DNA from: Aquitalea aquatica
Lineage (GTDB): Bacteria; Pseudomonadota; Gammaproteobacteria; Burkholderiales; Chromobacteriaceae
Assembly: GCF_013911085.1 (NCBI RefSeq)
Contig: NZ_JACERN010000017.1
Coordinates: forward strand, 124,001-188,000
Length of the DNA: 64,000 bases
Reading direction: 5' to 3'
Positions within the stretch are counted from its first letter, which is position 1, and each line of letters starts with the position of its first letter. Under the pieces are notes generated by a model. The model saw only the letters and a list, made by a program, of their open reading frames with translations, was not told the DNA's origin and ran no database searches. The translations under genes and the position numbers were made by a program. Below, piece after piece: positions 8,181 to 24,650 of this stretch.

Positions 8181-8236
8181 ACCGAACCCTTTCCCCCGTT
8201 TTTGTCCCCAGCAGGCTGCGCACAATGCAGCCCATG
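8181..8236 (+). promoter_or_regulatory. Repeated box-plus-hairpin element, copy 1 (before protease gene)
   Basis: The box ACCGAACCCTTTCC at 8181-8194, followed by a pyrimidine/T stretch, is shared with 12428 and (one change) 24578. It is followed by the stem GGCTGC/GCAGCC (8214-8219 and 8227-8232) with a GCACAAT loop. The hairpin overlaps the first candidate ATG (8225) of the protease gene and leaves no good ribosome site. A phage regulatory element is inferred: late promoter/activator site or translational operator. Confidence 0.5.
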
Positions 8237-9292
8237 AAGCTCATCCCAGAAGACGTTATCCGTGCCTTGAACAGCCTGCAGCCTGATGGCCTGCAGCGGG
8301 CGAGTTGCGCCATCGCTCTTTCCATCGCCCTGGCACTAGGTCCGAATGGCGAGCCGCCCGAATGGTGCCCGGTCATTCCGGCCGGCACGTTCATGGGCCG
8401 CGATGACCGTGGACCATGGCATACCGACACGGCAGCCGTGCTGGCCGACTTTGTAGCAAACCAGGCGAAGGGCATTGATCCGGTGGTCGACTACGACCAC
8501 CTCAGCATGGTGTGCCTGCAGACCGGCCAGAAGGCCGAGGCAGCCGGCTGGATCAAGCAGCTAGAGATTCGGAATGGCGAGACCTGGGCACGCATTGAGT
8601 GGAATGCCGATGCCGCCCAGGTGATCACGGCCAAGAAATGGCGCTACCTGTCACCCGTCTTCGATTTTGATGCCAGCGGCCGCGTGGTCCGCCTGGTAGC
8701 CGTGGGGCTGACCAACCAACCCAACCTGTTTTTACGTGCCCTCAACTCACAGGAGAACCGCATGGACCCGATTGACCAGCTGCTGCAGCAACTGGGCATC
8801 AGCATCACTGAAGCCATGGACGCTGCCAGCAAACTGACTGCCGCCCTGAATGCCATCAAGACGCTGCAGGACGTCAGCAACTCGACCCAGACCGCCATGA
8901 ACAGTCTGCGCCAGGCAACCGGTGCGGCTGCCGATGCCGACCTCAAGACGGTGGCCAACAGCATCATGACCGGCTTTGTACCGAAGGCCGAATACGAGCG
9001 CGTGGCCAATAGCTTGCAACAGCTGCAAGCCGGTACTGCTGCCGCCGAAGTCGACAAGGTGCTGGATGAAGCCATTGCTGCCGGCAAGATCACGCCGGCC
9101 AGTCGCAACTTCTACCAGGCCATGTGCAGCACTGACATGAAGGCCTTCAAGGACTTTGTGAAATCCGCCCCGGCCGTGGTGCAGCCCGGTACCGAAACCA
9201 CCATGCGTGCCGCCAACAGCAAGCATGACAACCAGCAGGGTGGTGACAACCCGCTGATTGCCAACGCCAAGGCCCGCGCCGGCACCAAGTAA
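8225..9292 (+). CDS. Prohead protease with C-terminal scaffold, Mu gpI-like
   Basis: A 355-residue fusion. Residues 1 to about 178 form the protease: CAIALSIALALGPNGEPPEW, IPAGTFMGRDDRG, the catalytic-type VVDYDHLSM, AAGWIKQLE and KWRYLSPVFDFD. This is the Mu gpI/peptidase U35-like pattern. Residues 180-355 are Ala/Gln-rich, helical and scaffold-like (TAALNAIKTLQDVSN and so on), ending in KARAGTK. The protease trims scaffold during prohead maturation. Start: ATG at 8225 is taken because AGCAGG lies upstream; ATG at 8234 is the alternative. Both lie in or next to a hairpin. An internal in-frame start makes free scaffold. Confidence 0.88.
   Translation: MQPMKLIPEDVIRALNSLQPDGLQRASCAIALSIALALGPNGEPPEWCPVIPAGTFMGRDDRGPWHTDTAAVLADFVANQAKGIDPVVDYDHLSMVCLQTGQKAEAAGWIKQLEIRNGETWARIEWNADAAQVITAKKWRYLSPVFDFDASGRVVRLVAVGLTNQPNLFLRALNSQENRMDPIDQLLQQLGISITEAMDAASKLTAALNAIKTLQDVSNSTQTAMNSLRQATGAAADADLKTVANSIMTGFVPKAEYERVANSLQQLQAGTAAAEVDKVLDEAIAAGKITPASRNFYQAMCSTDMKAFKDFVKSAPAVVQPGTETTMRAANSKHDNQQGGDNPLIANAKARAGTK
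8762..9292 (+). CDS. Free scaffolding protein from internal start (Mu gpZ-like)
   Basis: AGGAG (8751-8755) stands six bases before an in-frame ATG at 8762, exactly where the protease domain ends (after FLRALNSQENR). Translation from it would yield a 176-residue helical protein (MDPIDQLLQQLGISITEAMD onward) identical to the scaffold half. In Mu, the scaffold gpZ is made the same way inside gene I, and lambda C/Nu3 follows the same scheme. The internal ribosome site is better than that of the full-length gene, as expected when scaffold must outnumber protease. Expression is inferred from the sequence. Confidence 0.75.
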   Translation: MDPIDQLLQQLGISITEAMDAASKLTAALNAIKTLQDVSNSTQTAMNSLRQATGAAADADLKTVANSIMTGFVPKAEYERVANSLQQLQAGTAAAEVDKVLDEAIAAGKITPASRNFYQAMCSTDMKAFKDFVKSAPAVVQPGTETTMRAANSKHDNQQGGDNPLIANAKARAGTK

Positions 9293-9325
9293 CCCAACCC
9301 GGCCCCTGGCCAGAAAAGGAAAGTC

Positions 9326-9721
9326 ATGGAATCCCTGACGATCAATCAGACCCTGCCGCCCCAGATCCCGCTGGTTGGTGAGCCGGACGAATGCGGTGAA
9401 ACCCTTGTAGTCGGCCCGGCTGCACTGCCGGCCGGCACCATCCTCGGTGTGGCCACGCTGGACGATGAGCTGGCTGTGCCCTGGCATGCCGGTGATGATC
9501 CGCTTGCTTTCGTGCTAGGCGTGACCCGCCACGCACTGCCGGCAGCCGATGCCGGCGTCACCTCCCGCGAGGTCGCCACGGTGGCCGGTGATTGCCTGGT
9601 CGCTCTGGACACGCTGCCGGAGCTGCAGGCCGCGCAAACCTCTGCCGCCGCCCACTACCGCCACGTTTACCGCCAGCTGTCGGCCCGTGGCATCCGTATC
9701 ACCGAGCGTGCCGGCGACTAA
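9326..9721 (+). CDS. Probable head decoration protein
   Basis: The 131-residue protein starts after AAAGGAAAGTC. It is rich in Pro, Ala, Val and Gly and looks all-beta: ECGETLVVGPAALPAGTILG, DPLAFVLGVTRHAL, TVAGDCLVALDTLPEL. The last thirty residues are helical (AAHYRHVYRQLSARGI). A small beta-rich protein between protease/scaffold and major capsid is usually a head decoration or stabilising protein (position of Mu gp32/gp33 or lambda gpD). The assignment rests mainly on position and composition. Confidence 0.65.
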   Translation: MESLTINQTLPPQIPLVGEPDECGETLVVGPAALPAGTILGVATLDDELAVPWHAGDDPLAFVLGVTRHALPAADAGVTSREVATVAGDCLVALDTLPELQAAQTSAAAHYRHVYRQLSARGIRITERAGD

Positions 9722-9762
9722 GCGTCACCAGCCGTCACGACCTCAAGCAAAGGAAACTGAGC

Positions 9763-10791
9763 ATGCCTCAATCTATCGCTGACCTTCTGAAAGACCCCGC
9801 CTTCGGTGTCGCCAGCCTGACCGAGTCGATCAAGCTGCTGCCGAATACCTACTCCAAAGTTGGCCAGTCCGGCATCTTTGTACGCAAGGGCGTGAATTCC
9901 CGCACCATCGCTCTGGAGTATGCCGGTGGCCGTATTCACCTGCTGGCCAACCAGGATGTTGGCAGTCCGGGTCAACGCACCAAGCGCGACAAGAAAAACG
10001 TGAAGTTCTTCGGGGTGCCGCACATCCCGCACGACGACACCATTCAGGCCGCAGAGATTACTGGCTCCCGCGCCTTTGGCAGCAATGACACCCTGACGGT
10101 GGCCGACGTCGCCAATGTGGTGAACAACCATCTGCAGGACATGAAGGTCCGTCACGATCTGACCCAGGAATGGATGATGCTGGGTGCGCTGAAAGGCATC
10201 ATTCTGGATGGTGACGGCGACGTGCTGTACGACCTGTACAAGACCTTCGACATCCAGAAAACGGTGATCGAATTCAAGCTGTCTGACCCGAAGTTCAATG
10301 TGAAAAAAGCCTGCATGGATGTATGCCGTCACATTGAAAAGAACATGCTAGGTGATGTCTCTTCCGGCGTCGGCGCTTACGTCGATGCAGACTTCATGGA
10401 TGCACTGACCACCCACCCGAATGTGGAAAAGGCATTCCAGGGCTGGGCCGCTGCCCAGGAGAATATCGGCGGTGACGTGCGTGGCGGCTTCAAGTTCGGT
10501 GGTGTGATCTTTGAAGAGTACACCGGTGAAGTGCCGAAGGCTGATGGCAAGAGCACCGTGTCGCTGATCAGTGAAGGCACCGGCCACGCTTATCCGCAGG
10601 GTACCCGCCAGACCTTCCTGATGTACGACGCGCCGGGTGACTTCATGGAGGCAGTCGGTACCCTGGGCCAGCCGTACTACGCCAAGATCAAGAACACCGA
10701 CTTTGACCGTGGTGTGGATGTCCATACCCAGTCTAACCCGCTGCCGCTGTGCGCCCGTCCGGGTGTGCTGGTGGAATTGAAACTGACCTGA
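9763..10791 (+). CDS. Major capsid protein, lambda gpE-like family
   Basis: A 342-residue protein with the blocks of the gpE-type major capsid family: SLTESIKLLPNTYSKVG, VNSRTIALEYAGGRIHLLAN, NHLQDMKVRHDLTQEWMMLG, LKGIILDGDGDVLYDLYKTF, GAYVDADFMDALTTHP, FKFGGVIFEEYTG and HTQSNPLPLCARPGVLVEL. It forms the icosahedral shell with an HK97 fold. Mu itself uses gpT here; the lambda-like type marks this prophage as a mosaic, as in B3-like siphophages. The ATG at 9763 follows AAAGGAAACTGAGC; longer upstream reading would overlap the decoration gene. Confidence 0.92.
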   Translation: MPQSIADLLKDPAFGVASLTESIKLLPNTYSKVGQSGIFVRKGVNSRTIALEYAGGRIHLLANQDVGSPGQRTKRDKKNVKFFGVPHIPHDDTIQAAEITGSRAFGSNDTLTVADVANVVNNHLQDMKVRHDLTQEWMMLGALKGIILDGDGDVLYDLYKTFDIQKTVIEFKLSDPKFNVKKACMDVCRHIEKNMLGDVSSGVGAYVDADFMDALTTHPNVEKAFQGWAAAQENIGGDVRGGFKFGGVIFEEYTGEVPKADGKSTVSLISEGTGHAYPQGTRQTFLMYDAPGDFMEAVGTLGQPYYAKIKNTDFDRGVDVHTQSNPLPLCARPGVLVELKLT

Positions 10792-10821
10792 TAACGCCAT
10801 AAGGCGATAGAGAGACAGCGA

Positions 10822-10850
10822 CCGGGTGGGTGCTACTAACACCTACCCGG
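10822..10850 (+). other. Hairpin after the capsid gene
   Basis: CCGGGTGGGTG (10822-10832) pairs with CACCTACCCGG (10840-10850) over 11 positions with one G-T pair and a CTACTAA loop. There is no T-tract. It follows the capsid stop by 30 bases and probably protects the 3' end or partly terminates the abundant capsid message before the com-dam pair. Confidence 0.45.
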
Positions 10851-10895
10851 ACAGCTGACCGCAGACTGAACCTGCAGGCCAACCCAAGGCTGCCA

Positions 10896-10911
10896 CTTTC
10901 GTGCACGAAAG
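10896..10911. promoter_or_regulatory. Perfect 16-bp palindrome upstream of com
   Basis: CTTTCGTGCACGAAAG is a perfect inverted repeat with no spacer, 40 bases before the com ATG, in a 159-base non-coding stretch. It is a good candidate operator for a dimeric regulator of the DNA-modification pair. No GATC lies in this spacer, unlike the Mu mom control region. As RNA it would fold poorly (no loop), which favours a protein-binding site. Confidence 0.4.
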
Positions 10912-10950
10912 CCTGGCAATTCTAACGGGTTTTAACGACCTTGCAGAGAC

Positions 10951-11145
10951 ATGAACACCGATATTCGCTGTGGCCATTGCGGCCGGAAAATGGCCGAAGG
11001 CCAGTACATCACCCTCAGTATTAAGTGTCCGCGCTGCCGGATACTCAATCATTTCAAGGCCACGAGCCACCGACCAGCGCACCAGGGCGTGCCAGAGATA
11101 TCGCCTGATGCAAAACCTACCGATCATTCCCTGGATAGGCGGTAA
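10951..11145 (+). CDS. com: Com-like zinc-finger translational regulator
   Basis: A 64-residue protein with two CxxC knuckles: RCGHCGRKMAEGQY and KCPRCRILNHFKA, followed by a polar tail. This is the layout of phage Mu Com, a zinc-finger RNA-binding protein that opens the translation start of the DNA-modification gene mom. The com frame continues 38 bases into the downstream adenine methylase gene, so the methylase start lies inside com, as mom overlaps com in Mu. Its target here is therefore inferred to be the methylase message. The promoter is not obvious; a palindrome lies 40 bases upstream. Confidence 0.85.
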   Translation: MNTDIRCGHCGRKMAEGQYITLSIKCPRCRILNHFKATSHRPAHQGVPEISPDAKPTDHSLDRR

Positions 11146-11869
11146 ACGCCGCCTTGCCAAACACATCCTGCCGCTGTTCCCGGAACATACCTGCTACGTT
11201 GAGCCATTCTGTGGGGCAGCGGCCCTGTACTTCATGAAGAAGCCGGCCAAGGTCGAGGTGTTGAACGACATATCGGGCGAACTGGTGAACCTCTACCGGG
11301 TCGTGCAACACCACCTGGAAGAGTTTGTACGCCAATTCAAGTGGTCGCTGGTTTCACGGGAAATGTACAAGTGGCTGCAGATCACGCCGGATGTGATCCT
11401 CACTGATATCCAGCGGGCAGCCCGCTTTTACTACCTGCAGAAGATGGCCTTTGGCGGAAAGGTCAGTGGCCAGACCTTTGGCACCGCTTCTACCAGTCCG
11501 CCCAGGATGAATCTGCTGCGCATCGAGGAGGAGCTGTCGGCCGCGCACTTGCGCCTGGCCCGGACCTACGTCGAGCACCTGGACTGGAAAAGCTGCATGA
11601 AGAAGTACGACCGGCCACATACGCTGTTCTATGCTGATCCACCGTACTGGCAGACGGCGGGCTATGGTGTGCCGTTCCCGTTTGAGGAGTACCAGGCGCT
11701 TGCCGAGGTGATGCGCAGCTGCAAGGGCAAGGTGATCTTGAGCATCAACGACCACCCTGATATTCGTGACGTGTTTGCGGGCTTCAGGATGGAGCAAGTG
11801 GCCATCCAGTACAGCGTGAACCAAAACAAGGGGAAAGCCAGCGCAGAGCTGATCGTCTGTAACTGGTAG
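11108..11869 (+). CDS. dam: Phage DNA adenine N6-methyltransferase (D12 class, Dam-like)
   Basis: The 253-residue protein shows motif X (PWIGGKRRLAKHILP), motif I (YVEPFCGAAALYF) and the catalytic motif IV (DPPYW), all in D12/Dam order. The late block LSINDHPDIRDVF and the C-terminal AELIVCNW also fit. It transfers a methyl group from AdoMet to adenine N6. Placement after com matches Mu-like prophages of Haemophilus and Neisseria, whose com-linked enzymes (Hin1523/Nma1821/Hia5 type) methylate adenines with very loose specificity and protect phage DNA from restriction. Specificity here is unknown. The start ATG is inside com, in a different frame. Confidence 0.9.
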   Translation: MQNLPIIPWIGGKRRLAKHILPLFPEHTCYVEPFCGAAALYFMKKPAKVEVLNDISGELVNLYRVVQHHLEEFVRQFKWSLVSREMYKWLQITPDVILTDIQRAARFYYLQKMAFGGKVSGQTFGTASTSPPRMNLLRIEEELSAAHLRLARTYVEHLDWKSCMKKYDRPHTLFYADPPYWQTAGYGVPFPFEEYQALAEVMRSCKGKVILSINDHPDIRDVFAGFRMEQVAIQYSVNQNKGKASAELIVCNW

Positions 11870-11914
11870 ATGTGAAGGATGTGAGATGGCCAGGATGCTT
11901 TCCTGGCCAGCCTG

Positions 11915-12355
11915 CTACTTGTAAAAGTGATCTGCAATCACATTGAACGATTCGGAGGCAAAATAAGCTGTGATGGTTTTAACCTCTACGTAACGACCAG
12001 ATCCATGTTGATCAACGTATCCGTTACCCAAACGATTAGCAATTTCATCGGCACTAATGAAGGGACTGACATTCTTGTCATGTAGATAGTCAACATACAG
12101 AGTGATGTTATTTGTCTTGTCATCAACGAACACGTTGCGAACTTTCACAAAGTGATCGCGACTCTCTGTGCCAAGTAATGATTTCAGTTCTACTTCAAGA
12201 TCAATGACTTCTTGGACAGCATCCTTAACTGGGGATAAGTAACCCTTATGAAGGAGTCCATTCGTACGAGTGTTTGCAATAAAAAATTGAGACTCATCAG
12301 TAGTCATACCGATCACTGTCGAGGGCTTTTCAGTTCTATGAATTTCGATGGACAT
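11915..12355 (-). CDS. Reversed AT-rich moron gene, unknown function
   Basis: The 146-residue protein is the only gene on the minus strand within the prophage block. Its base composition is visibly poorer in G+C than its neighbours. It has its own ribosome site (AAGGTGAGG before ATG) and promoter-like sequence, the usual marks of a moron or lysogenic-conversion gene. The protein is soluble and mixed alpha/beta: SIEIHRTEKPSTVIGM, LSPVKDAVQEVIDLEVELKS, NNITLYVDYLHDKNVSPFIS. I recognise no domain. A role in superinfection exclusion, defence or host fitness is possible but unsupported. Confidence 0.75.
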   Translation of the reverse strand: MSIEIHRTEKPSTVIGMTTDESQFFIANTRTNGLLHKGYLSPVKDAVQEVIDLEVELKSLLGTESRDHFVKVRNVFVDDKTNNITLYVDYLHDKNVSPFISADEIANRLGNGYVDQHGSGRYVEVKTITAYFASESFNVIADHFYK

Positions 12356-12395
12356 GGCCTCACCTTGGTGTTGATGGATTTGTCATCACTACATG

Positions 12396-12430
12396 GCCAT
12401 AAATTGTACCCACATCCATCTGTCTACCGA
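12396..12430 (-). promoter_or_regulatory. Candidate promoter of the reversed moron
   Basis: On the minus strand TACAAT (12408-12403) lies 17 bases after TTCGGT (12431-12426 region). That is a good -10 with a weak -35. Initiation would fall about 40 bases before the moron ATG at 12355. It abuts the repeated phage box at 12428 in the opposite direction. Confidence 0.4.
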
Positions 12431-12480
12431 ACCCTTTCCTGCCTTTTTTGCACTCCCCATGCCCGCACAATGCGGGCATG
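12426..12480 (+). promoter_or_regulatory. Repeated box-plus-hairpin element, copy 2 (before gp36-like gene)
   Basis: ACCGAACCCTTTCC (12427-12440) is followed by a T-run. The perfect nine-base stem ATGCCCGCA/TGCGGGCAT (12459-12467 and 12471-12479) holds a CAA loop. The start codon of the next gene (12478-12480) is in the 3' arm and there is no Shine-Dalgarno. Spacing and order match copy 1. Confidence 0.55.
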
Positions 12481-12909
12481 ACTACTTCTACTCCCTACAT
12501 CACCCAGCAAGGCCTGGAAGACCGCTTTGGCCGAGAGTTCCTGCTGCGCGTCACTGACCCGACCAATACCGGCGAAGTTGACCAGGGCAAGGTCAGTCGT
12601 GCCATCGGGGACGCCACCGAGCTGGTCAATTCCTATCTAGGCAAGCGCTATACCTTGCCGGTGCCGTTCGTACCTGGTGCGCTGGAGCGGGTAGCGGCCG
12701 ACCTGGTGCGTTACTTCCTCTATTCCAGCCAGCCTGGTGAAGAAGTGACCAAGCGTTACGACGACGGGGTGAAGTGGCTTAAGGACGTAGCCAATGGCGT
12801 GGTGTCGCTGGGCTTGCCGGTGCCAGAAACCCCGGCCAGCTCCACCGGTAAGGTGGTCATGTCTGGCCCGCACCGCAAGTTCACCCGCCGCAGCATGAGG
12901 GACTACTGA
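12478..12909 (+). CDS. Head completion/connector protein, Mu gp36-like (DUF1320)
   Basis: The 143-residue protein matches DUF1320: an opening PYITQQGLEDRFGREFLLRV, VSRAIGDATELVNSYLGKRY and LPVPFVPGALERVAADLVRY, then a conserved tail before SGPHRKFTRRSMRDY. DUF1320 proteins (Mu gp36) form the ring that closes the portal and connects to the tail. The ATG is buried in a strong hairpin with no ribosome site before it, which is unusual for a structural gene. The stop overlaps the next ATG. Confidence 0.9.
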   Translation: MTTSTPYITQQGLEDRFGREFLLRVTDPTNTGEVDQGKVSRAIGDATELVNSYLGKRYTLPVPFVPGALERVAADLVRYFLYSSQPGEEVTKRYDDGVKWLKDVANGVVSLGLPVPETPASSTGKVVMSGPHRKFTRRSMRDY

Positions 12910-13328
12910 TGCGGCCCGACCACCTTGCCCTGGGCCAGCTCATTGTGGCCCAGCTCAAAACCCAGATCAGTGACGTCCGCCAGATCGTACAGCGCGGTGA
13001 GCTTAGCGATGTGACCAGCGGTGAACAAGTCTCGCCGTCGTTATATGTGATCTACGTGCGGGATGTCATTCCGGGTGATGGTCAGTCCATGGAAGCCCAG
13101 AACCACATCCTGCAGCAGTGGATGGTGGTGGTCGCTTACCAGGGCGGTGCAGACCAGATGCTGGCCAAAGCCGGTGAGCTGCTGGCCAAGGCCCGTGCTG
13201 CCCTGCTGGGCTGGACGCCGGATGCCGCGCTGTATGAACCACTGCAGGCATCGACACCGCCTGCAGCCGCCTATATGAGCGACTGGGGCTATTTCCCGCT
13301 GCTGTTTACCGCTGATTTCTATGCATGA
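12909..13328 (+). CDS. Tail terminator/neck protein, Mu gp37-like
   Basis: A 139-residue protein in TGATG overlap with gp36. The N-terminal helix LGQLIVAQLKTQISDVRQIV is followed by strands SPSLYVIYVRDV and QWMVVVAYQGG, then an amphipathic helix LAKAGELLAKARAALLGW and the closing WGYFPLLFTADFY. This alpha/beta layout and position fit phage tail terminator or neck proteins (Mu gp37 position). The ring would sit on top of the tail tube and join it to the connector. Confidence 0.75.
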   Translation: MRPDHLALGQLIVAQLKTQISDVRQIVQRGELSDVTSGEQVSPSLYVIYVRDVIPGDGQSMEAQNHILQQWMVVVAYQGGADQMLAKAGELLAKARAALLGWTPDAALYEPLQASTPPAAAYMSDWGYFPLLFTADFYA

Positions 13329-13344
13329 CATGAAAGGAGACCCC

Positions 13345-13530
13345 ATGGCATCGCCCCAGAAAGAGCGTGTCGAGCTGATTGTGGAGCACAAGAACGCCGG
13401 TACCCTCTACCCAGTTGGCCATGAGCTGGACGTATCCCCCAGCACGGCCGCCTGGCTATATCGCAACCACATTGCCAAGCCTGCGACGGCTAAGCAGTCT
13501 ATTCCCACTCTCTCGGAGCCTGAAGCATGA
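13345..13530 (+). CDS. Small phage protein, Mu gp38-like (DUF2635)
   Basis: The 61-residue protein starts at the ATG preceded by AAAGGAGACCCC; an in-frame ATG 24 bases earlier has no ribosome site. The sequence contains YPVGHELDVSPSTAAWLYRN followed by HIAKPA, which matches the short DUF2635 family found between gp37 and the tail tube or sheath gene in Mu-like phages. Its function is unknown. The end overlaps the tail tube gene by four bases (ATGA). Confidence 0.75.
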   Translation: MASPQKERVELIVEHKNAGTLYPVGHELDVSPSTAAWLYRNHIAKPATAKQSIPTLSEPEA

Positions 13531-14279
13531 GCTACGCACCCGTCATCCTGACACCTGAAAAACACACTTACTCGGTCTCCGGCCAGGTCCTGATGGCTGA
13601 GTACGGCGTGCCCAAATTCACCCCGTTTGCTATGGTCGAAACCGCTGACCTGACCATTGAGCAGGAAACCCAGGAGTTGGCGGACTCTTACACTGGCCAG
13701 GGCAACTACGACAAGCTGTACTCGGTGAAGTCGGTATCGCTGGATCTGAAGGTGACCACTTTCCAGCCGGAGATCATTGCCGAAATGACCATGGGTGTGG
13801 CCAATGCCCGTGAAGAGCAAGCCATTACCGATGAAGTCCAGACCGCTTTCAAGGGCGTTCTGGTACCGCTGCAGCACATCGGTTCCGGTGACTTTCAAGT
13901 CACCCCGGATGCAGGTGGCCAACCCTTTATCGCCGGCAAGGACTACTTCCCGACCGCTGCCGGCATCATTCCGCTGGCCGGTGGCGGCATCGCGGACGGC
14001 ACAAAGATCAAGGTGAGTTACAAGGCGCTGGAAGCCAATGTAGTCGAATGGCTGGCCGGCTCCCAGAAAGAGCGTTCGCTGATCTTCCATGGCGTGAATA
14101 AAGCTAGCCGCAAGCAAGTGGTGATGCAGATCTTCCGGGGCAAGTTTGGTTTCCCGGACAAGTACGCACTGCTGGGCAAGGATTTCCGTAGTTCCGGCGT
14201 CAAGTTTGAAGTGCTGGCCGACCCGTTGCAGACCGGTGAAGGCCTGTCGCAGTGGGTACGTGAAACCCTGCTGAAGTAA
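13527..14279 (+). CDS. Major tail tube protein (siphovirus type)
   Basis: A 250-residue beta-rich protein: LMAEYGVPKFTPFAMVETAD, QELADSYTGQGNYDKLYSV, LKVTTFQPEIIAEMTMG, then an inserted loop with DGTKIKVSYKALE and the core FHGVNKASRKQVVMQIFRGK, closing with KFEVLADPL. Size, position before the chaperone and tape measure, and lack of a neighbouring sheath gene point to the tube of a long non-contractile tail. This is the feature that separates B3/D3112-type transposable phages from Mu. Copies stack as rings along the tape measure. Confidence 0.8.
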   Translation: MSYAPVILTPEKHTYSVSGQVLMAEYGVPKFTPFAMVETADLTIEQETQELADSYTGQGNYDKLYSVKSVSLDLKVTTFQPEIIAEMTMGVANAREEQAITDEVQTAFKGVLVPLQHIGSGDFQVTPDAGGQPFIAGKDYFPTAAGIIPLAGGGIADGTKIKVSYKALEANVVEWLAGSQKERSLIFHGVNKASRKQVVMQIFRGKFGFPDKYALLGKDFRSSGVKFEVLADPLQTGEGLSQWVRETLLK

Positions 14280-14328
14280 GCCATTCCACCACCGATGGGC
14301 GCAGCCTGGCTGCGCCCTGGAGCTTGTC

Positions 14329-14688: not shown

Positions 14689-14807
14689 GCCAGCTGGAAA
14701 CCAACCTGGGCCGGCTGATTGAAGCAGGCCACCCGAATGCAGCGCGGTACCCGCTGCGCTTCTTTGCCGCCGTCATTGATGATCTGAATAGCCGAAACGC
14801 CACATGA
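14329..14807 (+). CDS. Tail assembly chaperone, -1 frameshift long form (slippage at 14610-14616)
   Basis: After codon CCG CTT TTT TTC, a -1 slip on T TTT TTC enters a frame that stays open to 14807. It adds about 63 residues ending in LGRLIEAGHPNAARYPLRFF and AAVIDDLNSRNAT. That second segment has protein-like composition beyond the zero-frame stop at 14688 and has no convincing start of its own, so it is best explained as the gpG-T style extension. It stops in ATGA overlap with the tape measure ATG. Slippage efficiency cannot be judged from sequence. Confidence 0.7.
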
Positions 14808-17800: not shown

Positions 17801-19015
17801 CATCAGGACGCCTGGGCCAACAATAAAGCGGTAGACCCTGCGACAAAGGCCACTGAACCACAAGGCGTTACCGACTATTACGACAGCCTGCAGAAAGCTC
17901 AGGCACTGGCGCGGGCAGCGCAGGATAGCCAGAAGACAGCCAATACCACTGGCCTTGATGGCGACTTCCAAAAGGCCACCCGCGATGCAGCCGCTGCTGA
18001 AACAGCTTTCGGCCGAGTGATGGATGTCATCAATCAACTGCGTAGCGGCGGCAAGATCACTGAAGGCGAATTCAAGCTGTTCAATGACCAGGCTGGCCGC
18101 GCCCAGGACAGTCTGGATGCCGGCGCAGAAAAAACCGCAAAATCTTCCTTGCAAGCAGCAATGGAAAAGATGGAAGCACTGAAAGCCGCTGCCGCAGCCA
18201 TCCAGAAACTGGATATATCGGTGAGCTTCAATGATAAGCAGGCCGTCCAGGATATGGAAAGCATGATCAACCGCATTCAGCAGGCGGCCCAGGCTCATCC
18301 AGTCAAGATTGCCACTGCGCTAGTCGGCCCCGATGGAAAGCTGCTGCAGGATGCGCGCCAGGCAATTGGTCTGCCAGACCGTCCAACCTCGGAACTGACA
18401 CCAGGGCCATCCACTGCTGGAAGCAGTGACAAGAAAGCAGCAGCGGCAACGATACCGGCCGAAGTTGATAAGAAAACTGCGACAGCTGACCTGAACCAGT
18501 TTCTGGATAGTGCCCAGCTGGTTGCCAAAGCCAATCCTATCAAGGTACCGGTGAACTACATCGGCGGCAGCGATGCAGCGACTAATCTTGCGGCGGCCCG
18601 TCGGCAAGTCGGCCTGCCCGACATCCAGTCCCACGCCGATGGTGGTGCCATTTCTGGCCCAGGTACCGGCACCTCGGACAGCATCCTAAGCCGCTTGAGC
18701 AATGGCGAATTCGTGGTCCGTGCAGCGGCTACCAGCTACTACGGGCCGGATCTGCTTCATGCCATCAATCAGATGCGTCTCCCGCGCTTTGCCACGGGCG
18801 GTGTCGTGGGCCAACTGCCGGCAGTGAGCCGGGCGATGTCGGCCATGCCATCCCTGCAGGCGAGTACCAGCAGCGCTGCCATTGGCCAGTCCAGTAGCCC
18901 ACTCAACATCTGGCTACCTGGTGCAGCCGACCCCATCACCGTGCAGGCCCCGGATGCATCCGTTAAACAGCTGCGCGATGCCGCGTTAAAACACAACCTC
19001 AAATTCGGCAAATAA
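14804..19015 (+). CDS. Tail tape measure protein
   Basis: The 1403-residue protein sets tail length. Residues 1-370 are helical and include three tandem 81-residue repeats. Residues about 400-600 carry the tape-measure signature: FETLRTQLNAVEKSANKGGE, QVTNLTQTYIRLRNYGLDP, LQGEEIMQLNEAGVPVWDLL, WNGIVSNATDLWQEFLDS. Hydrophobic segments follow (AIIAVAAVYGALAAKKLF and VAALIARFTVFGTVAYASY), as in tape measures that help DNA cross the inner membrane. Coiled-coil material fills residues 840-1250, and the end has the usual HADGGAISGPGTGTSDSI and LPRFATGGVVG. The start overlaps the chaperone stop. Confidence 0.95.
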   Translation: MKTLEYLIKANSSDFVTAVTKAETIYGQALKGMADKAKQISLFKQAKEDADSTGTALVKLKTTAEQVRKALGDSGGTLQQNQQLAQTEAAINKTEAAMRGQVAAVVSMRQALAAAGVDTRNLAAEQDKMATAIAKASASVIQNRRTNAARDVLGIRSELDVTREINLVQAAYDRLAATGTVSHNELDRAAAATKARIAALRQELRGGAEEVKLFTAPSAAVNQVRRTGAARDVLGIRSELDITREINQVQAAYDRLAATGTVSHNELDRAAAATKARIASLRQELRGGAEEVKLFTAPAAPIRQAQRTSAARDVLGIRSQTDIQREIQQVSAAFSRLTQNPAISMAELSRAATATKARIAALRQELQGTMPASSFLMTGAGKLVAMASAVVSLNAALALTRSILSTAGQFETLRTQLNAVEKSANKGGEAFAYIKQQAVNTPFQVTNLTQTYIRLRNYGLDPTAGSMQAIIDQAAKLGGSQEMLERITLALGQAWTKQKLQGEEIMQLNEAGVPVWDLLSKAMNKSAAELMKLSENGQLGRDAITALMQAMENDAAGVAASQMQTWNGIVSNATDLWQEFLDSIGQAGLLQFAKDSITQLTTALQKMKETGELSQIAHDIADALQALGKIAIGTAKFITAHHDAIIAVAAVYGALAAKKLFAGLATDLVTFATAATKAATALRTLKEAQTVGDIIDTVVGKGSVRKATAAAKAAQPASTLTKVASGVIEGATYAQGVTETYRLAKAVPAAAGTGVAVEGAKAAETAAMQSGAAWSAAANVAKKAWMGMTSEVALTSSVSLTGVAALIARFTVFGTVAYASYKALEPIISNTIDLYKMEIDALEQKRQTLEEINRLEREGVKQDGGTGTGAVTRIMTASELASSSSAQLKSYRENLDRAHKIQFDQAVQQARNITRAGGDSDKDPEYQKYLAEAITYKKAIKALDDYEAQRLKLETGYSNQIKAIKNGQLETLAVALAREQKLYDKANEQLQAAVAARQKHQDAWANNKAVDPATKATEPQGVTDYYDSLQKAQALARAAQDSQKTANTTGLDGDFQKATRDAAAAETAFGRVMDVINQLRSGGKITEGEFKLFNDQAGRAQDSLDAGAEKTAKSSLQAAMEKMEALKAAAAAIQKLDISVSFNDKQAVQDMESMINRIQQAAQAHPVKIATALVGPDGKLLQDARQAIGLPDRPTSELTPGPSTAGSSDKKAAAATIPAEVDKKTATADLNQFLDSAQLVAKANPIKVPVNYIGGSDAATNLAAARRQVGLPDIQSHADGGAISGPGTGTSDSILSRLSNGEFVVRAAATSYYGPDLLHAINQMRLPRFATGGVVGQLPAVSRAMSAMPSLQASTSSAAIGQSSSPLNIWLPGAADPITVQAPDASVKQLRDAALKHNLKFGK
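15233..15904 (+). repeat. Three tandem 243-bp coding repeats in the tape measure gene
   Basis: Copies begin at 15233, 15476 and 15719, a strict 243-base (81-codon) period. Copies 1 and 2 are nearly identical in protein: AARDVLGIRSELD, REIN.VQAAYDRLAATGTVS, HNELDRAAAATKARIA. Copy 3 is diverged (IRSQTDIQREIQQVSAAFSR). In-frame duplication like this would lengthen the tail by a fixed step per copy. Confidence 0.9.
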
Positions 19016-19018
19016 ACC

Positions 19019-19540
19019 ATGAATGCAAATCGATATGCACAGTTTTTTGCACTGGATGGCCAGGTCATTCCAATCCGGGCCGGTCTGAAAGTGAACCAGA
19101 CCTATGAACAGCTCGGTGGCCGCCAGCTGTTCCGGGCCCGCACCGGTAAGGCCCGGATGCAGAGCCACTGGACCAAGGTTAAAACCGTCCTGTCCGGCAG
19201 CGGCTGGAATGTCATGCCTTTTGCGGGCATTGATCAGACGGCCGTGCATACCCTGGACTGCGTGACCGCCCGTGCGCTGCAAAGCCATCTGCCGCTGTTT
19301 ACCCTGCCGGCACTCCGTCAGGACATCCCGCCGAGGGGCTTTGCCGTGGTCAATGGCGAACTGGTGCCGACGCATGCAGTGCTGGCCGGCACGGTGCTGA
19401 CGCTCAACCCAGTCGCCAATGCGGACAGCTACGTCTGCTGGTACTGGCCTCGCCTGACCGGTTATCTGACCGCCGTCAGCGACCAGGGCGACCCGCGCAG
19501 CCTGAATTACACCTGGTCGCTGATGCTGGAAGAGGCTTGA
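19019..19540 (+). CDS. Distal tail protein candidate
   Basis: The 173-residue protein is encoded three bases after the tape measure. It is beta-rich, with GGRQLFRARTGKARMQSHWT, VLSGSGWNVMPFAGIDQ, and the C-terminal ADSYVCWYWPRLTGYLTAV plus NYTWSLMLEEA. Ending with a W-rich strand and the SLMLEE motif is common in minor tail proteins immediately after tape measures. That suggests a distal tail (Dit-like) ring or an adaptor between tube and tip. Assignment is by position and composition; I cannot name the family. Confidence 0.55.
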   Translation: MNANRYAQFFALDGQVIPIRAGLKVNQTYEQLGGRQLFRARTGKARMQSHWTKVKTVLSGSGWNVMPFAGIDQTAVHTLDCVTARALQSHLPLFTLPALRQDIPPRGFAVVNGELVPTHAVLAGTVLTLNPVANADSYVCWYWPRLTGYLTAVSDQGDPRSLNYTWSLMLEEA

Positions 19541-19541
19541 G

Positions 19542-21770
19542 ATGATCAACGGCTCTGCCATCAATAGCGCACCAATCAATGCCTATTCCGCTGGCGGCGG
19601 TACGCCACAGCCGGGTGCCAGCAAACTGTCGGTACCGATTACGCTGGACGTGTCGACGCTACCGACCGGATCGCTTTCTACCCCGATCAGCCTGGCTGTG
19701 CTGCCGGTATCACTGCCGGCAGAAGGCTGGGATGTCCGGGTGCTGGTGGGCGGTGTTGATCTGTCCGGCCGGGTCGAGGGAGAGCTGGAAATTGAAGCGG
19801 AGGAAGGCGCAGCGCGTATTGCATCGGTGGTGCTGAGTCTTGCGGCCGGAGATAGCCTGGCCAGCTTTGGTGGGCAAAGCCTGGTGATTGATGTCCAGCC
19901 GATGATCGGTGGTGCGTGGGTGCGGCGCTTTACCGGCAAAGTCTCCCTGCCGCAGTTTGATCTTGAAGCTGGCCGCGTCACCCTGCACGGTACCGATAAC
20001 CGCCATGAGCTGCTAGCACAATCTAGCCGCTCAGCCCTTGCAGCTATGCTCGGTGGCTACTGGTCCGATCATGTCGGCAGTGAGGCAGCAAACAGTCTGC
20101 AGTATGCCGAAGGCCGACTGGAAACCGTTGCAGGCAGCTTTGATCTGGATGCCTATGGTAATCCACGGCTGACCAACTGGGCCGGATCTGGCCAGGCTGC
20201 GACGGTGACTGACGACGATATCAAGGATGGTTCGCTCGAGGTCCGGCCGGTAGCGCTGAGCGATGTCACCAACCTGGTGACAAATGACCAGGTCGGGCTG
20301 GGTGCGGTTTCGACGACCAGCATTTGCGGCCTGATCCACGACAGTGCAAACGATACCGGCAAGTCTGCGACCGATAATCTGACCGCCAATACCCGACCAT
20401 TGATCGGTGGAACGGTTGAACCAGGTGCAACGGTCACCCTGGCTATCGGTGGTCAGAGCGTGGTGACCACGGCGTCAGGTACGGGCTATTTTGCAGTACA
20501 GCCGCCGTATGCGCTGGCCCCCGGCATCCATACTCCGCATATCACTGTTACAAGCAGTTGGACGTGGGAGGCTTGGGGAACGTCGTTCACCGTGGCCACG
20601 GCTGATGAGGCGAATGAAGGGGCAGTATCGTCGGCGACAAGTGAAAAAGTGGCAAGCACCGATTGCACCCTGGAATACCGCTACCCGCGCCTGCATTTGG
20701 CCGAAACCATATACCAATGGTCCATGGGCATTTCCTACCCGGAGCTTGTTCTCGGTCGCAATGGCCATGCTTTTATTCTCCCGGAGCGGTCACTGTTTGA
20801 ATCGGCTGCCAGCCAGAGCGGCTGGATCGTCGACAAGACGACATACACCTCTCCGAAACAAGGTAGCTCCGTCGTTGGCTATATCGACCGCAATGGCAAT
20901 GTGATCAATGGTGCCCCCGGCCCGGCCGCTGATGTCGTTGAAGTGTTGATCTTCAAGAACGAGTACACGGGCGCGGTAGAACTGGACCCACGCTGTGAGT
21001 CGGCAACGCTATGGCTGCATCGTCGTATTGCACAGCCTGTGACTGAGCGCTGGCGTGTCACGGTGTCCGCGCCGGACTCTGTCGCAGCACTCGGCACCCG
21101 TAAAACCCAAGGGGCGACGGCTGCCGTGGATGCTACGAGCAGCTTTAATGCCGATGCCTGGGAAAAGGACTTAAAGGTCGAGCCGGTCATCAAGACCAGC
21201 ACCGACTACACCAGTCTGCCGACGGTTTCCCGCGCCGATATTGATGCTGCCCTTGTCTGCCTGGCGGCGAAGGCTCGTCGCCAGATCCTGGCCAGCCACC
21301 GCGCCAGCCGGGTGACATTCACCACCGTGGCCAGTGCGACGCTGGACTTGCCGCAGCGCCTGCAGGTTGATTCTGCCGACCTGCACGCTATTGGCAAAGT
21401 TGCCCGGTTTGTCGAGCGCTACACCATCGACAGCGGCCGGGCCGAGACGGACATCGAGCTGGCGATCAGTGCGCTGGTCGGTGTCGGCACCGCCCAGGAT
21501 GAACCGCTTCAGAGTCCAGTTATTACCGGCGCGGCCAATCTTTCGCAGTCGGCCACGGTGCCGGTGCCTAGTGCTTGGGAAGGCCGAGGTAACCTGATTG
21601 CGGGCACATCCTGGACCACGGGGGCGACGGGTGACACGACTTCGCAATATCCGCGCTCTGTCGCGCTAACCACCAATGCTATCCACCCCTATATGACTGA
21701 CCCGATTGACCGCCCGATGTCCTATGAGATCAGTGTGGCCATACCGGTTGACCCTTTTGAACTGAGGTAG
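19542..21770 (+). CDS. Large tail-tip (hub/baseplate-like) protein with Ig-like insert
   Basis: A 742-residue protein, one base after its neighbour. The N-terminal third looks like a tail hub: WDVRVLVGGVDLSGRVEGEL, WVRRFTGKVSLPQFDLE, VTLHGTDNRHELLAQSSRSA. A bacterial Ig-like domain is inserted at about residues 280-345 (RPLIGGTVEPGATVTLAIGG, then a GYFAVQPPYALAPGIHTP strand pattern). The last third has HRRIAQPVTERWRVTVSA and SHRASRVTFTTVASATLDLP. It probably forms the central tail-tip hub, with the Ig-like part binding cell-surface sugar weakly. Family identity is not recognised. Confidence 0.6.
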   Translation: MINGSAINSAPINAYSAGGGTPQPGASKLSVPITLDVSTLPTGSLSTPISLAVLPVSLPAEGWDVRVLVGGVDLSGRVEGELEIEAEEGAARIASVVLSLAAGDSLASFGGQSLVIDVQPMIGGAWVRRFTGKVSLPQFDLEAGRVTLHGTDNRHELLAQSSRSALAAMLGGYWSDHVGSEAANSLQYAEGRLETVAGSFDLDAYGNPRLTNWAGSGQAATVTDDDIKDGSLEVRPVALSDVTNLVTNDQVGLGAVSTTSICGLIHDSANDTGKSATDNLTANTRPLIGGTVEPGATVTLAIGGQSVVTTASGTGYFAVQPPYALAPGIHTPHITVTSSWTWEAWGTSFTVATADEANEGAVSSATSEKVASTDCTLEYRYPRLHLAETIYQWSMGISYPELVLGRNGHAFILPERSLFESAASQSGWIVDKTTYTSPKQGSSVVGYIDRNGNVINGAPGPAADVVEVLIFKNEYTGAVELDPRCESATLWLHRRIAQPVTERWRVTVSAPDSVAALGTRKTQGATAAVDATSSFNADAWEKDLKVEPVIKTSTDYTSLPTVSRADIDAALVCLAAKARRQILASHRASRVTFTTVASATLDLPQRLQVDSADLHAIGKVARFVERYTIDSGRAETDIELAISALVGVGTAQDEPLQSPVITGAANLSQSATVPVPSAWEGRGNLIAGTSWTTGATGDTTSQYPRSVALTTNAIHPYMTDPIDRPMSYEISVAIPVDPFELR

Positions 21771-21772
21771 CC

Positions 21773-22162
21773 ATGGCGCTCACTTTTGCACTGTATTACG
21801 ACGCCGCCCGGACCCAGCCAGTCACCCAGCTGGCGCTAGCCGGCATTAACGATGCCCTTGCCAGTCCGCTCCAGCAGCGGCTGTATGTTGGTCCTGCTGC
21901 CGGCATGCGGACGATGTCGACGGATGGCCAGCCGATCCGCTTATCGGTCGTCTCAACCGGTGATGTCCAGCCCAGCGCATTCCGCTTGGCGCTGAGCCAA
22001 GTGGATCTCAGCAGCGCAGTACCAGGTGCAGACATTGCCTTGCCTGCCCAGCTGGATGACTTGGTAGCGATCTGGCTGCAAGTAGATTGCTCCCACATCA
22101 CAACGGGCAGCCATGGCGGCCTGACGATCACCAGTACCGAAGTGAAAGAGGTAGCACTATGA
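21773..22162 (+). CDS. Phage tail-tip region protein, unknown
   Basis: The 129-residue beta-rich protein starts at ATG two bases after the hub gene. Features include FALYYDAARTQPVTQLALAG, QQRLYVGPAAGMRTMSTDG, VVSTGDVQPSAFRLALSQV and a closing GGLTITSTEVKEVAL. It has no signal peptide, cysteine motif or catalytic pattern. Size and place suggest a small structural subunit of the tail tip. It overlaps the next gene by four bases. I do not recognise the family. Confidence 0.6.
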   Translation: MALTFALYYDAARTQPVTQLALAGINDALASPLQQRLYVGPAAGMRTMSTDGQPIRLSVVSTGDVQPSAFRLALSQVDLSSAVPGADIALPAQLDDLVAIWLQVDCSHITTGSHGGLTITSTEVKEVAL

Positions 22163-22491
22163 GCGGCATGACTGAGCAAGATGCCCAGACTATCGGCAGG
22201 GCACTGAAGCAGCCGGCTACCTCATCAAAGCGGTTGCCGGCACTGCCGGCGCGTGGCGGGATTCCCAGTGCCACGGCAACAGGAACAGCCACTCAGTCGG
22301 CTAGTACAACAAGCGGTGGCGGGATTGACTCGCCGCTGACTGAGCAGTCCAGAAGCTACTGGCCGACCGTACAAGCTGTCACCTCGGATGGGCTGCTGCA
22401 GATCGCATACCAGCCAATCAAGAGCGTTGTGATGAAAGATAAATCTGGCCGGGAGGTGGTGTTTAACTATGTCCAGCCTACCGCCTCCTGA
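22159..22491 (+). CDS. Phage tail-tip region protein with Ser/Thr/Ala-rich linker, unknown
   Basis: A 110-residue protein starting in ATGA overlap. The middle is a low-complexity linker (ATATGTATQSASTTSGGGID). The C-terminal forty residues form a compact beta unit (YWPTVQAVTSDGLLQIAYQP, VVMKDKSGREVVFNYV). The shape suggests a flexible connector between tail hub and adhesion proteins. It overlaps the following large gene by 23 bases, indicating tight co-translation. No family recognised. Confidence 0.55.
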   Translation: MSGMTEQDAQTIGRALKQPATSSKRLPALPARGGIPSATATGTATQSASTTSGGGIDSPLTEQSRSYWPTVQAVTSDGLLQIAYQPIKSVVMKDKSGREVVFNYVQPTAS

Positions 22492-23878
22492 CCTCAGCGG
22501 CCCGCTGCCGCTGCAGATTAACCGGCTTGGCCATGCCACACATGGGCTGTGTAAAAACGGCACGGTCAGCATGGCCAACGGCCTGCAGCAGGATGGCTAT
22601 GCTTTCCCTGGGACGGGTTTCTGCTATGCCGTATCAGTGCCGGGCTTTGTCGCTAGTGTTGATCCCGATGCCGCTGCTGAGCAGGCTGCAGGCCGCTACT
22701 GGTTGCCTTATGCCATCGTTGCCGGTGGGCAGCTGTATGGCCAGCAGCTGATGAATGAGCCTGGCTATCGTGGTGATGCTGCCGTATTCATGAGTTTTGG
22801 TACTAACCGGAATCTGGCGATCACCATTCCTGGCGGTGCCATTAAAGCCATCTGGTGGACTATCTGGCCATCTCAGAAAATACATAGCGTGACCGGCATT
22901 TCTGCAATCAATGAGCTGCCATTCTGGAAGCTGCTAGACGTCGCTGGCCACCGTGCCGTGTTTGCGGCCAGCACGGCCTTGGGTGGCGATAACATCGGTA
23001 TGAAGCTGTGGTATGCAGAGTGCCGTTTTTTTGAAATGACTGTGAGTTGGCCAGTCGGTGGCACGCCACAGATATCCTTGGCAGAGCTGCCGAATACGAG
23101 CAGCATTCCCACGCAGTTTGATGGCTTTACAGTAACCCAGGCTGCTCCTGTAGAGGGCGGTGGCCTTGAGCTGCGGGACTATACGCTGCCCGCCCGTTCC
23201 TATGATGCGCAATACGGCATGACGTCAAACCGCCTGGCGCTCCAGCCGATGGCGACTAATGTGGCTGCCTACTATCCACACGACCATACCTTTAGCCGCA
23301 TCGTCGGCTATGCCTACCGGGGTGAAGAGCCGCAGCCAATTACCTGTGAGGCGCGCAGCGTGTTGACCCAGGACTTTGCATGCTCTCCTTATTCTTATCT
23401 TGAAACCAAGCTCTGGTCTGTCCGTATCAGCAATAAGGCGCATCGACGGGTGACGACACGGATCGCGTTTGGGGGTACTGAGGTCATCAGTGCGGTGTGG
23501 GATAAGGATATCTGGGATAGCTGGGTTGTCATGAGCGCTGGCGGTGTTGATGCTGATGCCAATGGACAGCCACTGCTTGGCGGTGGCCCGCTAAATGATG
23601 GGGACAATGCTGTTGTGTGGATGGGGTGTTATGTAGTGGGGCGAGATCTGCTGGTTGCTGCATGGTCGGATAGTGAGTCCGCAAAATGGCAGCTTGTCGA
23701 TGTCGTGACCGGTCAGAAGCTGAACCAGGGGAGCCTCAGCGATGCCCAGCGGTTGGCGTTTCAGCAGGGGCATAAGTTTGAGTTTATCTATGCCAGTAAA
23801 CACCCAGTTACCGGGCAAATTGCGGTCAGTGTTCCAGCTGCCGGCAGTTCGCTTGCAGAGCAGCTGTGCTGGGTTTAA
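22469..23878 (+). CDS. Large tail-tip/adhesion protein, unknown
   Basis: The 469-residue protein is aromatic- and Gly-rich, with many short strands: GYAFPGTGFCYAVSVPGFVA, IPGGAIKAIWWTIWPSQ, MKLWYAECRFFEMTVSWPV, HTFSRIVGYAYRGEEP, WDKDIWDSWVVMSAGGVDA. Clustered Trp and Tyr on predicted strands are typical of carbohydrate- or receptor-contacting phage proteins. There is no coiled coil or collagen repeat, so it is not a simple fibre. It may be the receptor-binding or baseplate shell protein of this phage. I do not recognise a family. Confidence 0.55.
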   Translation: MSSLPPPDLSGPLPLQINRLGHATHGLCKNGTVSMANGLQQDGYAFPGTGFCYAVSVPGFVASVDPDAAAEQAAGRYWLPYAIVAGGQLYGQQLMNEPGYRGDAAVFMSFGTNRNLAITIPGGAIKAIWWTIWPSQKIHSVTGISAINELPFWKLLDVAGHRAVFAASTALGGDNIGMKLWYAECRFFEMTVSWPVGGTPQISLAELPNTSSIPTQFDGFTVTQAAPVEGGGLELRDYTLPARSYDAQYGMTSNRLALQPMATNVAAYYPHDHTFSRIVGYAYRGEEPQPITCEARSVLTQDFACSPYSYLETKLWSVRISNKAHRRVTTRIAFGGTEVISAVWDKDIWDSWVVMSAGGVDADANGQPLLGGGPLNDGDNAVVWMGCYVVGRDLLVAAWSDSESAKWQLVDVVTGQKLNQGSLSDAQRLAFQQGHKFEFIYASKHPVTGQIAVSVPAAGSSLAEQLCWV

Positions 23879-23890
23879 CGGGAGATTTGT

Positions 23891-24577
23891 ATGTTTTCGA
23901 TGTTTAATAACTCTGATGTCACGCTGGCGGGGCTGGATCAGCAGGCATTTGGCAACGCTAGTAACTTTGTGGCTGCAGTGTGGCCGAATGCCAGCCCGAC
24001 CAGGGAAATGCTGGTGGGGCATACTGCGATGCGCGTAGCGATTGAAGCCATTGACGGTAGTCAGCGCGAAATCATTGAGCTGCGGGTATCGGAAGATCAG
24101 ATCATCCGTGGGGCCGAGCCAGTCATGCTGGCCGGCAACTGGGTAGACCAAAATTCCATCAGCTGGGACGCTGTACCGTGCCGGGTGTTTGTGACGGTGA
24201 CTGCCGCCATGTTGCAGGCTGCAATGGGCTATCCGCAATATGTCGGTGCCGGCATGTATCAGTCCAATCTGCAGATTGACTGGCCAGCCCAATCCATTGA
24301 TATCAGCGCATACGATAGCCCGGACCCGGTCTTTCTGATGCTGTCCCCTGTGTCGATTTTCCCCGGTGACCGTTTCCGGGTCACGCTGGTGCGCAATGGT
24401 GGCAATCCAGTCCAGATTGGTGGTACCGCAGGCCGCTGGAAAATGAAGGATGGCAGTGCAGTGAACTGGCCGACCATGGGGACGGGTGGCCTTGTTACAT
24501 GGCACTTTGATGCGTTCCTGGACAGTATGAACTGCGTGGCGTACATCGTGAATGAGGTACGGATCGCAGCGGGTTAA
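23891..24577 (+). CDS. Tail-tip/adhesion protein, unknown
   Basis: A 228-residue protein preceded by GGGAGATTTGT. It appears all-beta: SNFVAAVWPNASPTREMLVG, HTAMRVAIEAIDGSQREI, WVDQNSISWDAVPCRVFVTV, DRFRVTLVRNGGNPVQIGG and a Gly/Trp-rich end. Shared W-rich style with the preceding 469-residue protein suggests that both belong to one adhesion complex. Its end overlaps the start of a repeated regulatory box (24578 onward), marking the close of this sub-operon. No known domain recognised. Confidence 0.55.
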   Translation: MFSMFNNSDVTLAGLDQQAFGNASNFVAAVWPNASPTREMLVGHTAMRVAIEAIDGSQREIIELRVSEDQIIRGAEPVMLAGNWVDQNSISWDAVPCRVFVTVTAAMLQAAMGYPQYVGAGMYQSNLQIDWPAQSIDISAYDSPDPVFLMLSPVSIFPGDRFRVTLVRNGGNPVQIGGTAGRWKMKDGSAVNWPTMGTGGLVTWHFDAFLDSMNCVAYIVNEVRIAAG

Positions 24578-24650
24578 CCGAACCCCTTCCCCCGTTCCTC
24601 CACAGCAGAAACACCGGACACTTGGCACTCAATGTCCGGTGTTTTGTTTT
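24577..24650 (+). terminator. Repeated box-plus-hairpin element, copy 3, with intrinsic-terminator form
   Basis: ACCGAACCCCTTCCCCCG (24577-24594) matches the box at 8181 and 12427 with one change. The stem AAACACCGGACA/TGTCCGGTGTTT (24609-24620 and 24633-24644) is followed by TGTTTT. Here the hairpin could terminate transcription as well as mark the start of the next gene set (TTG at 24662). Confidence 0.6.

Follow-up and report, generated by a model that had tools for sequence, protein, structure and literature searches.

In a 64,000-nucleotide stretch of the Aquitalea aquatica genome (the window; positions count from its first base), a short sequence box, ACCGAACCCYTTCC, stands before late genes of a Mu-like prophage. 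The box occurs there as three exact matches, all on the plus strand, at 8181–8194, 12426–12439 and 24577–24590, and nowhere else in the window; about 0.001 exact matches would be expected by chance in 64 kb on both strands (an arithmetic estimate). With three mismatches allowed, the window gave 6 matches against a mean of 7.0 for shuffled sequence, that is, no excess. The symmetry of the box is weak (GAA-N4-TTC). The original prediction for this DNA had recognized the same three copies, with the second placed at 12427 instead of 12426, and three is not the full number: a search of the genome, in which C48 labels the contig that holds the window and C9 another contig, found a fourth box at C48:123539, 462 bases upstream of window base 1, and a fifth at C9:87402, inside a different element.

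The early part of the prophage encodes a transposase with Mu domains, an ATPase, GemA and an activator of the Mor/C family, and the late part encodes the large terminase, portal, protease, capsid, head-tail adaptor, a major tail protein with an immunoglobulin (Ig) domain, the tape measure and fibre-assembly proteins. The boxes precede four gene blocks of the late part, namely lys (amidase-like), I (head maturation protease), J (gp36-like adaptor) and the fibre block. The fourth box lies between the activator gene and lys. The activator gene (C48:122438–122896; PF08765 above the cut-off, E value 1.5e-10), hereafter C, adjoins the GemA gene and ends about 640 bases before the lys box; it was the one Mor/C gene found in the prophage. 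The three boxes of the window had been described as marking the three places where the tight overlap of genes is broken, which is roughly right, with another gap, lacking a box, at 25018–25188.

A box and a hexamer at fixed spacing

In all five copies in the genome, a hexamer of the form nAnnnT starts exactly 40 bases from the start of the box. It reads TACGAT at both lys-type copies, CACAAT at I (8221–8226) and J (12466–12471), and GACACT at the fibre block (24617–24622; GACAAT in Paludibacterium), all three in the window being on the plus strand. The distance between box and hexamer is rigid while the sequence of the spacer varies. We propose that the hexamers are the −10 elements of promoters (Plys, PI, PJ and Pfib) and that the boxes are the sites of the C activator. 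With an RNA start 6–7 bases past the hexamer, the box would occupy about −53 to −40, and its GAA-N4-TTC core would be centred at about −45. No sigma-70 consensus pair was found on the plus strand in 8000–25000, and a sigma-70 promoter acting without an activator was rejected on that ground; a −10 hexamer with no good −35 characterizes Mu-type late promoters, and the hexamer here is conserved at a fixed offset.

Relatives were collected by gene and protein searches and not by the motif; several of the loci (given L-numbers as they were fetched) are near-identical or come from the same prophage, so the counts are not independent. Eleven of 12 relatives of J carry the box 52 bases 5′ of the start codon and CACAAT at offset 40 (three of them with one mismatch in the box), and the contig of the twelfth is cut too short. 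Before I, box, identical hexamer and identical spacing were found in 11 of 17 relatives, with ATG 53 bases from the start of the box. Every one of 18 C loci has the box (at most one mismatch) and TACGAT or TAAGAT downstream of the C gene; relatives of the C protein lie on contigs of A. palustris, A. pelogenes, an uncultured Aquitalea and Paludibacterium denitrificans. Counterparts of the fibre site are present in four prophages of the Aquitalea group (one mismatch in L087; three each in L086, L088 and L089) and in three of Paludibacterium, in all seven about 11–13 kb downstream of the J box; none was found in L090 and L092. Between prophages, median identity was 0.59–0.63 on the 5′ side of the box, where the random baseline is 0.61, and 0.70–0.85 on the 3′ side. 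The box is therefore the upstream edge of a conserved unit.

Searches by motif gave a consistent distribution of matches. Across 61 genomes of the family the box occurred 34 times, against 9 for a control with the pattern reversed. Six genomes hold 31 of the 34, of which 28 are in clusters of two to four and 3 are single copies; the remaining 3 (L073, L074 and L075) are lone matches in two other genera, which we took as chance since the hexamer is missing. Among 369 genomes drawn from the class, only this genome matched the combination of box, hexamer and ATG. A scan of viral contigs by motif alone yielded 85 loci with 89 matches (84, then 5 more), 57 of them new (54 and 3), and five of the new loci resemble late promoters. 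The ATG at +53 opens head maturation proteases of two different PHROG families in the metagenome contigs L126 and L179; the box precedes the gene for the major tail protein in L101 and a frame read as lysozyme without a family search in L113, whose contig also encodes a C relative (29% identity to the nearest query); the fifth, L116, is a lys site of the Aquitalea type. The other 52 were judged by eye, without annotation, to be chance matches. One of these, L100, met the regular expression and sits in a 23-row profile that had already been selected on box and hexamer, and from which we draw no claim of conservation.

Comparison with Mu and other Mu-like phages

In phage Mu, lys, I, P and mom have C-activated promoters, each a weak core with the activator site directly 5′ of the −35 region (PMC4461284). 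The prophage resembles Mu in having one late activator of the Mor/C family, encoded 5′ of lys, and promoters with a common sequence near the start before lys and I. It differs in the sequence of the box, in having its further promoters at J and the fibre block where Mu has PP and Pmom, and in the predicted leaderless starts of I and J with hairpins nested on the −10 element. We identified no homologue of P or mom, and there is no further box in the window, including before the com and methyltransferase genes. A similar geometry is found at the Mu middle promoter Pm, which has no −35 element and where Mor occupies −51 to −36, with its centre at −43.5 (PMC4287176); the centre proposed here is at about −45, and the proposed promoters likewise have a −10 without a −35. 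Pm, however, drives the middle operon that includes C, whereas the proposed targets of the Mor/C gene of the prophage are late operons.

Four other Mu-like phages, Klebsiella ST405-OXA48phi1.1, Pseudomonas VW-6B, Haemophilus SuMu and Mannheimia 3927AP2, encode C proteins 25–35% identical to that of the prophage and carry different boxes, each repeated before lys, I and, in two of the phages, gp46; the features in their records do not mark these boxes. When their ten sites were aligned on the GAA core, the pattern nAnnnT stood at offset 36 in nine and at 37 in the tenth (next best offset, 4). A count of nine at any offset was reached by none of 5,000 shuffles, a control that covers the choice of offset and not that of the anchor, as the GAA anchor and the ten sites were picked after the Aquitalea sites were known. 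In phage B3 (L097), TTTTCG-N6-CGAAAA lies before the holin gene, I and the tape measure gene, and is a candidate for the Mor site of B3.

Of the functions offered in the original prediction, a phage late promoter with an activator site is the one that the data bear out: the spacing is fixed, a Mor/C gene lies beside the lys copy, the arrangement is conserved at lys, I, J and the fibre block, and its position is near that of the Mor site of Mu Pm. We consider it very probable, from these features of the sequence, that the boxes mark C-activated late promoters, the counterparts of Plys and PI of Mu.

Predicted leaderless starts of I and J

Gene I (8234–9292, plus strand; phrog_328, E value 2.5e-67) encodes the head maturation protease/scaffold, and gene J (12478–12909, plus strand; phrog_195, E value 7.5e-44) the gp36-like head-tail adaptor. 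In the Aquitalea group their ATG codons lie 7 and 6 bases past the hexamer, that is, at +50 (I) and +49 (J) from the GAA core. No Shine-Dalgarno sequence was seen by eye before ATG 8234 or ATG 12478, as had been noted originally. Judged from position (hexamer, 6–7 bases, ATG), the mRNAs of I and J are probably leaderless, with RNA starting at the ATG or one base before it, which would explain the missing Shine-Dalgarno sequences. The first gene after Pfib (24662–25018, plus strand; phrog_1084, of unknown function) has GAGAGG before its TTG start. In the four other phages, a start codon stands at +48 or +49 from GAA at 4 of the 10 sites (I and gp46, the latter with GTG, in Klebsiella; I in VW-6B; gp46 in Mannheimia). 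If the reading holds, the capsid protease and the head-tail adaptor are synthesized from leaderless mRNAs.

Hairpins nested on the promoters

The hairpins that had been described after the three boxes of the window are all present, starting 18 to 20 bases past the end of the box, with unrelated arm sequences; all are given on the plus strand. At PI, the arms GGCTGC (8214–8219) and GCAGCC (8227–8232) enclose the hexamer. At PJ, the dyad CATGCCCGC-ACAAT-GCGGGCATG (12458–12480; arms 12458–12466 and 12472–12480) spans the hexamer and the start codon. At Pfib, ACACCGGACA (24611–24620) and TGTCCGGTGT (24633–24642), followed by a T tract, form an intrinsic terminator (24611–24650) with a GC-rich stem of 10 base pairs, the 5′ arm of which overlaps the hexamer; a simple terminator scan missed it, as it allowed loops of at most 8. 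The RNA fold z-scores of the three were −1.98, −6.42 and −3.88. The lys copy has no dyad spanning the equivalent position. What is common to all copies is the box and the −10-like hexamer at 40, so the shared form of box plus hairpin proposed earlier holds for copies 1–3 only, and an element that joins a terminator to a start fits copy 3 and not the others. We rejected box and hairpin as a single element because the Plys box has no spanning hairpin and the arms differ between sites. The lys leader (L002 and related sites) has a hairpin of its own, CCTCATG...CATGAGG, which apparently takes in part of the Shine-Dalgarno sequence; it is present in four of five lineages and absent in G009 (L013).

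The relatives keep the hairpins as well as the boxes: both are retained in near relatives, as the original prediction had required of a genuine element. Combined fold z-scores against shuffles, which are not probabilities because the lineages are related, were −5.8 for PI (7 lineages), −9.2 for PJ (5) and +0.5 for Plys (5); the PJ dyad is kept in four of five lineages and weak in the fifth. The arms at PI vary by lineage yet stay complementary (GGCTGC, CCCCGC, CCCGC, GGCCGC and GCTGC, each with its partner). Over six aligned sequences, 31 of 36 cells of the PI stem pair (86.1%) and 5 cells have changed on both sides, values each reached by 1 of 500 shuffles; one sequence, c2845, has its pairing shifted by one position and so weighs against the structure at that place, and two metagenome sites were excluded as their register differs. 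At the fibre site a terminator-like hairpin overlaps the hexamer in both Aquitalea and Paludibacterium, with different sequences. A terminator-like hairpin also stands before lys in SuMu, Mannheimia 3927AP2 and VW-6B, where the predicted start lies within its 5′ arm.

The predicted RNA start comes after the 5′ arm at I, J and the fibre block; the promoter's own transcript would thus be unable to form the hairpin. We compared read-through RNA with own RNA at 30 promoters, hand-chosen as one per lineage and class. The z-score for loss of structure was negative in 28 of the 30 and within the lowest 5% of shuffles in 20, a comparison that rests on inferred start sites.

Proposed mechanism

From the box, the hexamer, their spacing, the dyads, the covariation and the C gene, all read in the sequence, we infer C binding, the start sites, leaderless translation and insulation. 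The Mor/C-family activator that the prophage itself encodes would bind DNA at the box, and each copy would be a late promoter of the class-II type without a −35 element, in the geometry given above. Produced from its gene immediately 5′ of lys, C would activate the four late operons (lys, I, J and fibre) in concert. The inverted repeats would act as a second layer: transcripts that run in from the preceding operon or from cargo genes can fold into the hairpins, and would be terminated at the fibre block or have the start codon buried at I and J. We regard this explanation as a whole (C-activated late promoters, leaderless I and J, insulation against read-through) as likely; the insulating role of the hairpins, taken by itself, is an evenly balanced proposal. 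Fold-back inhibition of IS10 and IS50 transposase mRNA offers a parallel to this proposal, in that read-through RNA has both arms and hides the start and the element's own transcript lacks the 5′ arm. The arrangement in the prophage would differ in serving late phage operons with predicted activator-dependent leaderless transcripts. Somewhat more tentative is the generalization that this arrangement may serve Mu-like phages of several bacterial families as a common, compact boundary device. In it, a hairpin would enclose the −10 and the RNA start of a C-activated promoter; late transcripts would begin cleanly, and without a leader at some genes, while transcripts running in from accessory cargo or the preceding operon would end there or have the start codon covered.

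A number of observations weigh against these proposals. For the promoters, six relatives of I lack the box, these being the distant ones (32–36% identity); PI of L054 has a spacing of 41 and two mismatches in the box, and PI of L091 two mismatches; the fibre boxes of L086, L088 and L089 are the three with three mismatches, and in L090 neither J nor the fibre block has a site at up to three mismatches. The box is weakly symmetric whereas the Mu sites are dyads; symmetry is stronger, by eye, in the SuMu and Klebsiella boxes. The geometry could not be placed in Mu itself, where I appears to carry a Shine-Dalgarno sequence. The sequence TTAT-N6-ATAA, which we take to be the Mu C site, marked on Mu only the com/mom region and one match inside a fibre gene, so the geometry was not transferable to lys and I of Mu. 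The C9 copy (L007, C9:80001–94374) and its counterpart on A. pelogenes contig_24 (L043) have a lys-type box and an amidase-like gene downstream of a C remnant that lacks about 62 central codons; the neighbours in L007 belong to PHROG families 27697, 25302 and 23754, of unknown function, and the element could be a late lysis cassette that is decaying or has been domesticated. For leaderless starts, the annotated I starts of SuMu and Mannheimia 3927AP2 are at +60 and +74 from GAA, so that I is not leaderless there, in contrast to the prediction for the prophage. For the hairpins, PI of G009 folds no more stably than its shuffled versions (z −0.32). Twenty-two other gene starts of the window were folded too; those at 14329 and 9592 are more stable than the I start, and 14329 is also more stable than the J start. 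The number of PI pairs with double changes (3) was reached by 35 of 500 shuffles, and that of further pair types by 326 of 500. Ten of the 30 promoters missed the 5% level in the comparison of own with read-through RNA, including PI of the window (43/400) and three of five Plys, and the dyad noticed by eye at Klebsiella I is not the lowest-energy fold.

Alternative explanations

The promoters may be as proposed while the hairpins merely mark the ends of upstream transcripts, as terminators or as 3′ protection, lying beside the promoters for compactness and without effect on the use of the start codon. Copy 3 and the lys sites of SuMu, Mannheimia 3927AP2 and VW-6B do resemble intrinsic terminators. 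The stems at I and J, however, have no T tract and finish flush with or inside the ATG in several lineages, and a terminator needs neither the one nor the other position; we hold this reading of the hairpins to be possible, though on the unlikely side.

The dyads at I and J might instead be operators: a second protein with a repressing or modulating role would occupy the inverted repeat that surrounds the −10 and thereby obstruct RNA polymerase. Inverted repeats that straddle the −10 are in the usual place for a repressor, and covarying stem positions could also arise in an operator that co-evolves with its protein. Yet the arms differ by lineage (GGCTGC, CCCCGC, GGCCGC, CCCGC) while the box barely changes, which is unlike the operator of one protein; the register of the stem shifts relative to the hexamer in L054 and in the two metagenome I sites; and Pfib and the lys sites of other phages hold a terminator-like hairpin with a T tract at the equivalent place. 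An operator is unlikely on these grounds.

It is highly improbable that box and hairpin form an RNA element in the 5′ leader of mRNAs begun further upstream, as a translational operator or processing site, perhaps for the Com protein, as had been suggested. The start codons covered by hairpins, the missing Shine-Dalgarno sequences and the presence of a Com gene would fit such an element. On the 5′ side of the box, however, prophages are no more alike than random sequence, which leaves no promoter further upstream that they could share; the distance from box to hexamer is rigid though the spacer varies; Plys has box and hexamer and no such hairpin; and the 5′ arms lie upstream of the predicted RNA start. 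The Com zinc-ribbon gene (10951–11145; PF10122) overlaps the frame of an adenine methyltransferase (span 10951–11869), an arrangement as in phage B3, and not a box, and we rejected Com as the effector; the promoter reading has no need of RNA processing.

A device at the level of DNA, in which a GC-rich dyad extrudes or helps to melt the −10 so that C acts at isomerization, would suit the hexamer lying in or beside the dyad loop at I and J. It is highly improbable, as Plys has the same box and activator without a dyad and stems of 5–9 pairs are short for cruciforms.

Significance and prophage setting

An activator-dependent late promoter is a known kind of promoter, and the nested, leaderless form is a variant of it. 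In a literature search judged mostly from titles and the openings of abstracts, and covering few subscription papers, we recognized no account of the box, of late mRNAs of Mu-like phages that lack a leader, or of promoters of this kind with nested hairpins; a comparative paper (PMC4378225) relied on general promoter predictors. The C-activated promoters proposed here would supply a rule by which late promoters of transposable phages other than Mu could be recognized: box core, 36–37 bases, hexamer, start.

The distance from the end of the C gene to the lys box runs from 56 to 5070 bases across the 18 loci, and we read the interval between C and lys as a cargo slot on account of this range. Just 5′ of the window, a gene resembling a DnaJ domain (L006:12907–13503; below the Pfam cut-off) lies between C and lys, in what looks like such a slot. 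The methyltransferase gene and a reverse-strand open frame sit just 5′ of the J box; together with the variable distance from C to lys, this places the boxes at the downstream edge of variable cargo, which gives a motive for insulation and is not a proof of it. The reading points to a way in which phage operons could be kept insulated from the variable cargo next to them: if the boundary device is real, cargo could be inserted beside essential operons with their timing unchanged. The reverse-strand frame (11915–12355, minus strand; 146 amino acids, between the methyltransferase gene and the J box) has no Pfam or PHROG match and is possibly a cargo gene.

A search of solved structures with a profile of C gave no match at an E value of 0.01. 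A second gene of the Mor family lies elsewhere in the genome (C1:413319–413633), 38% identical to C and in an open frame of 305 amino acids. Between gene G and the I box, a strong inverted repeat, GCCCTTGGCG...CGCCAAGGGC, without a T tract, occupies 8041–8080.

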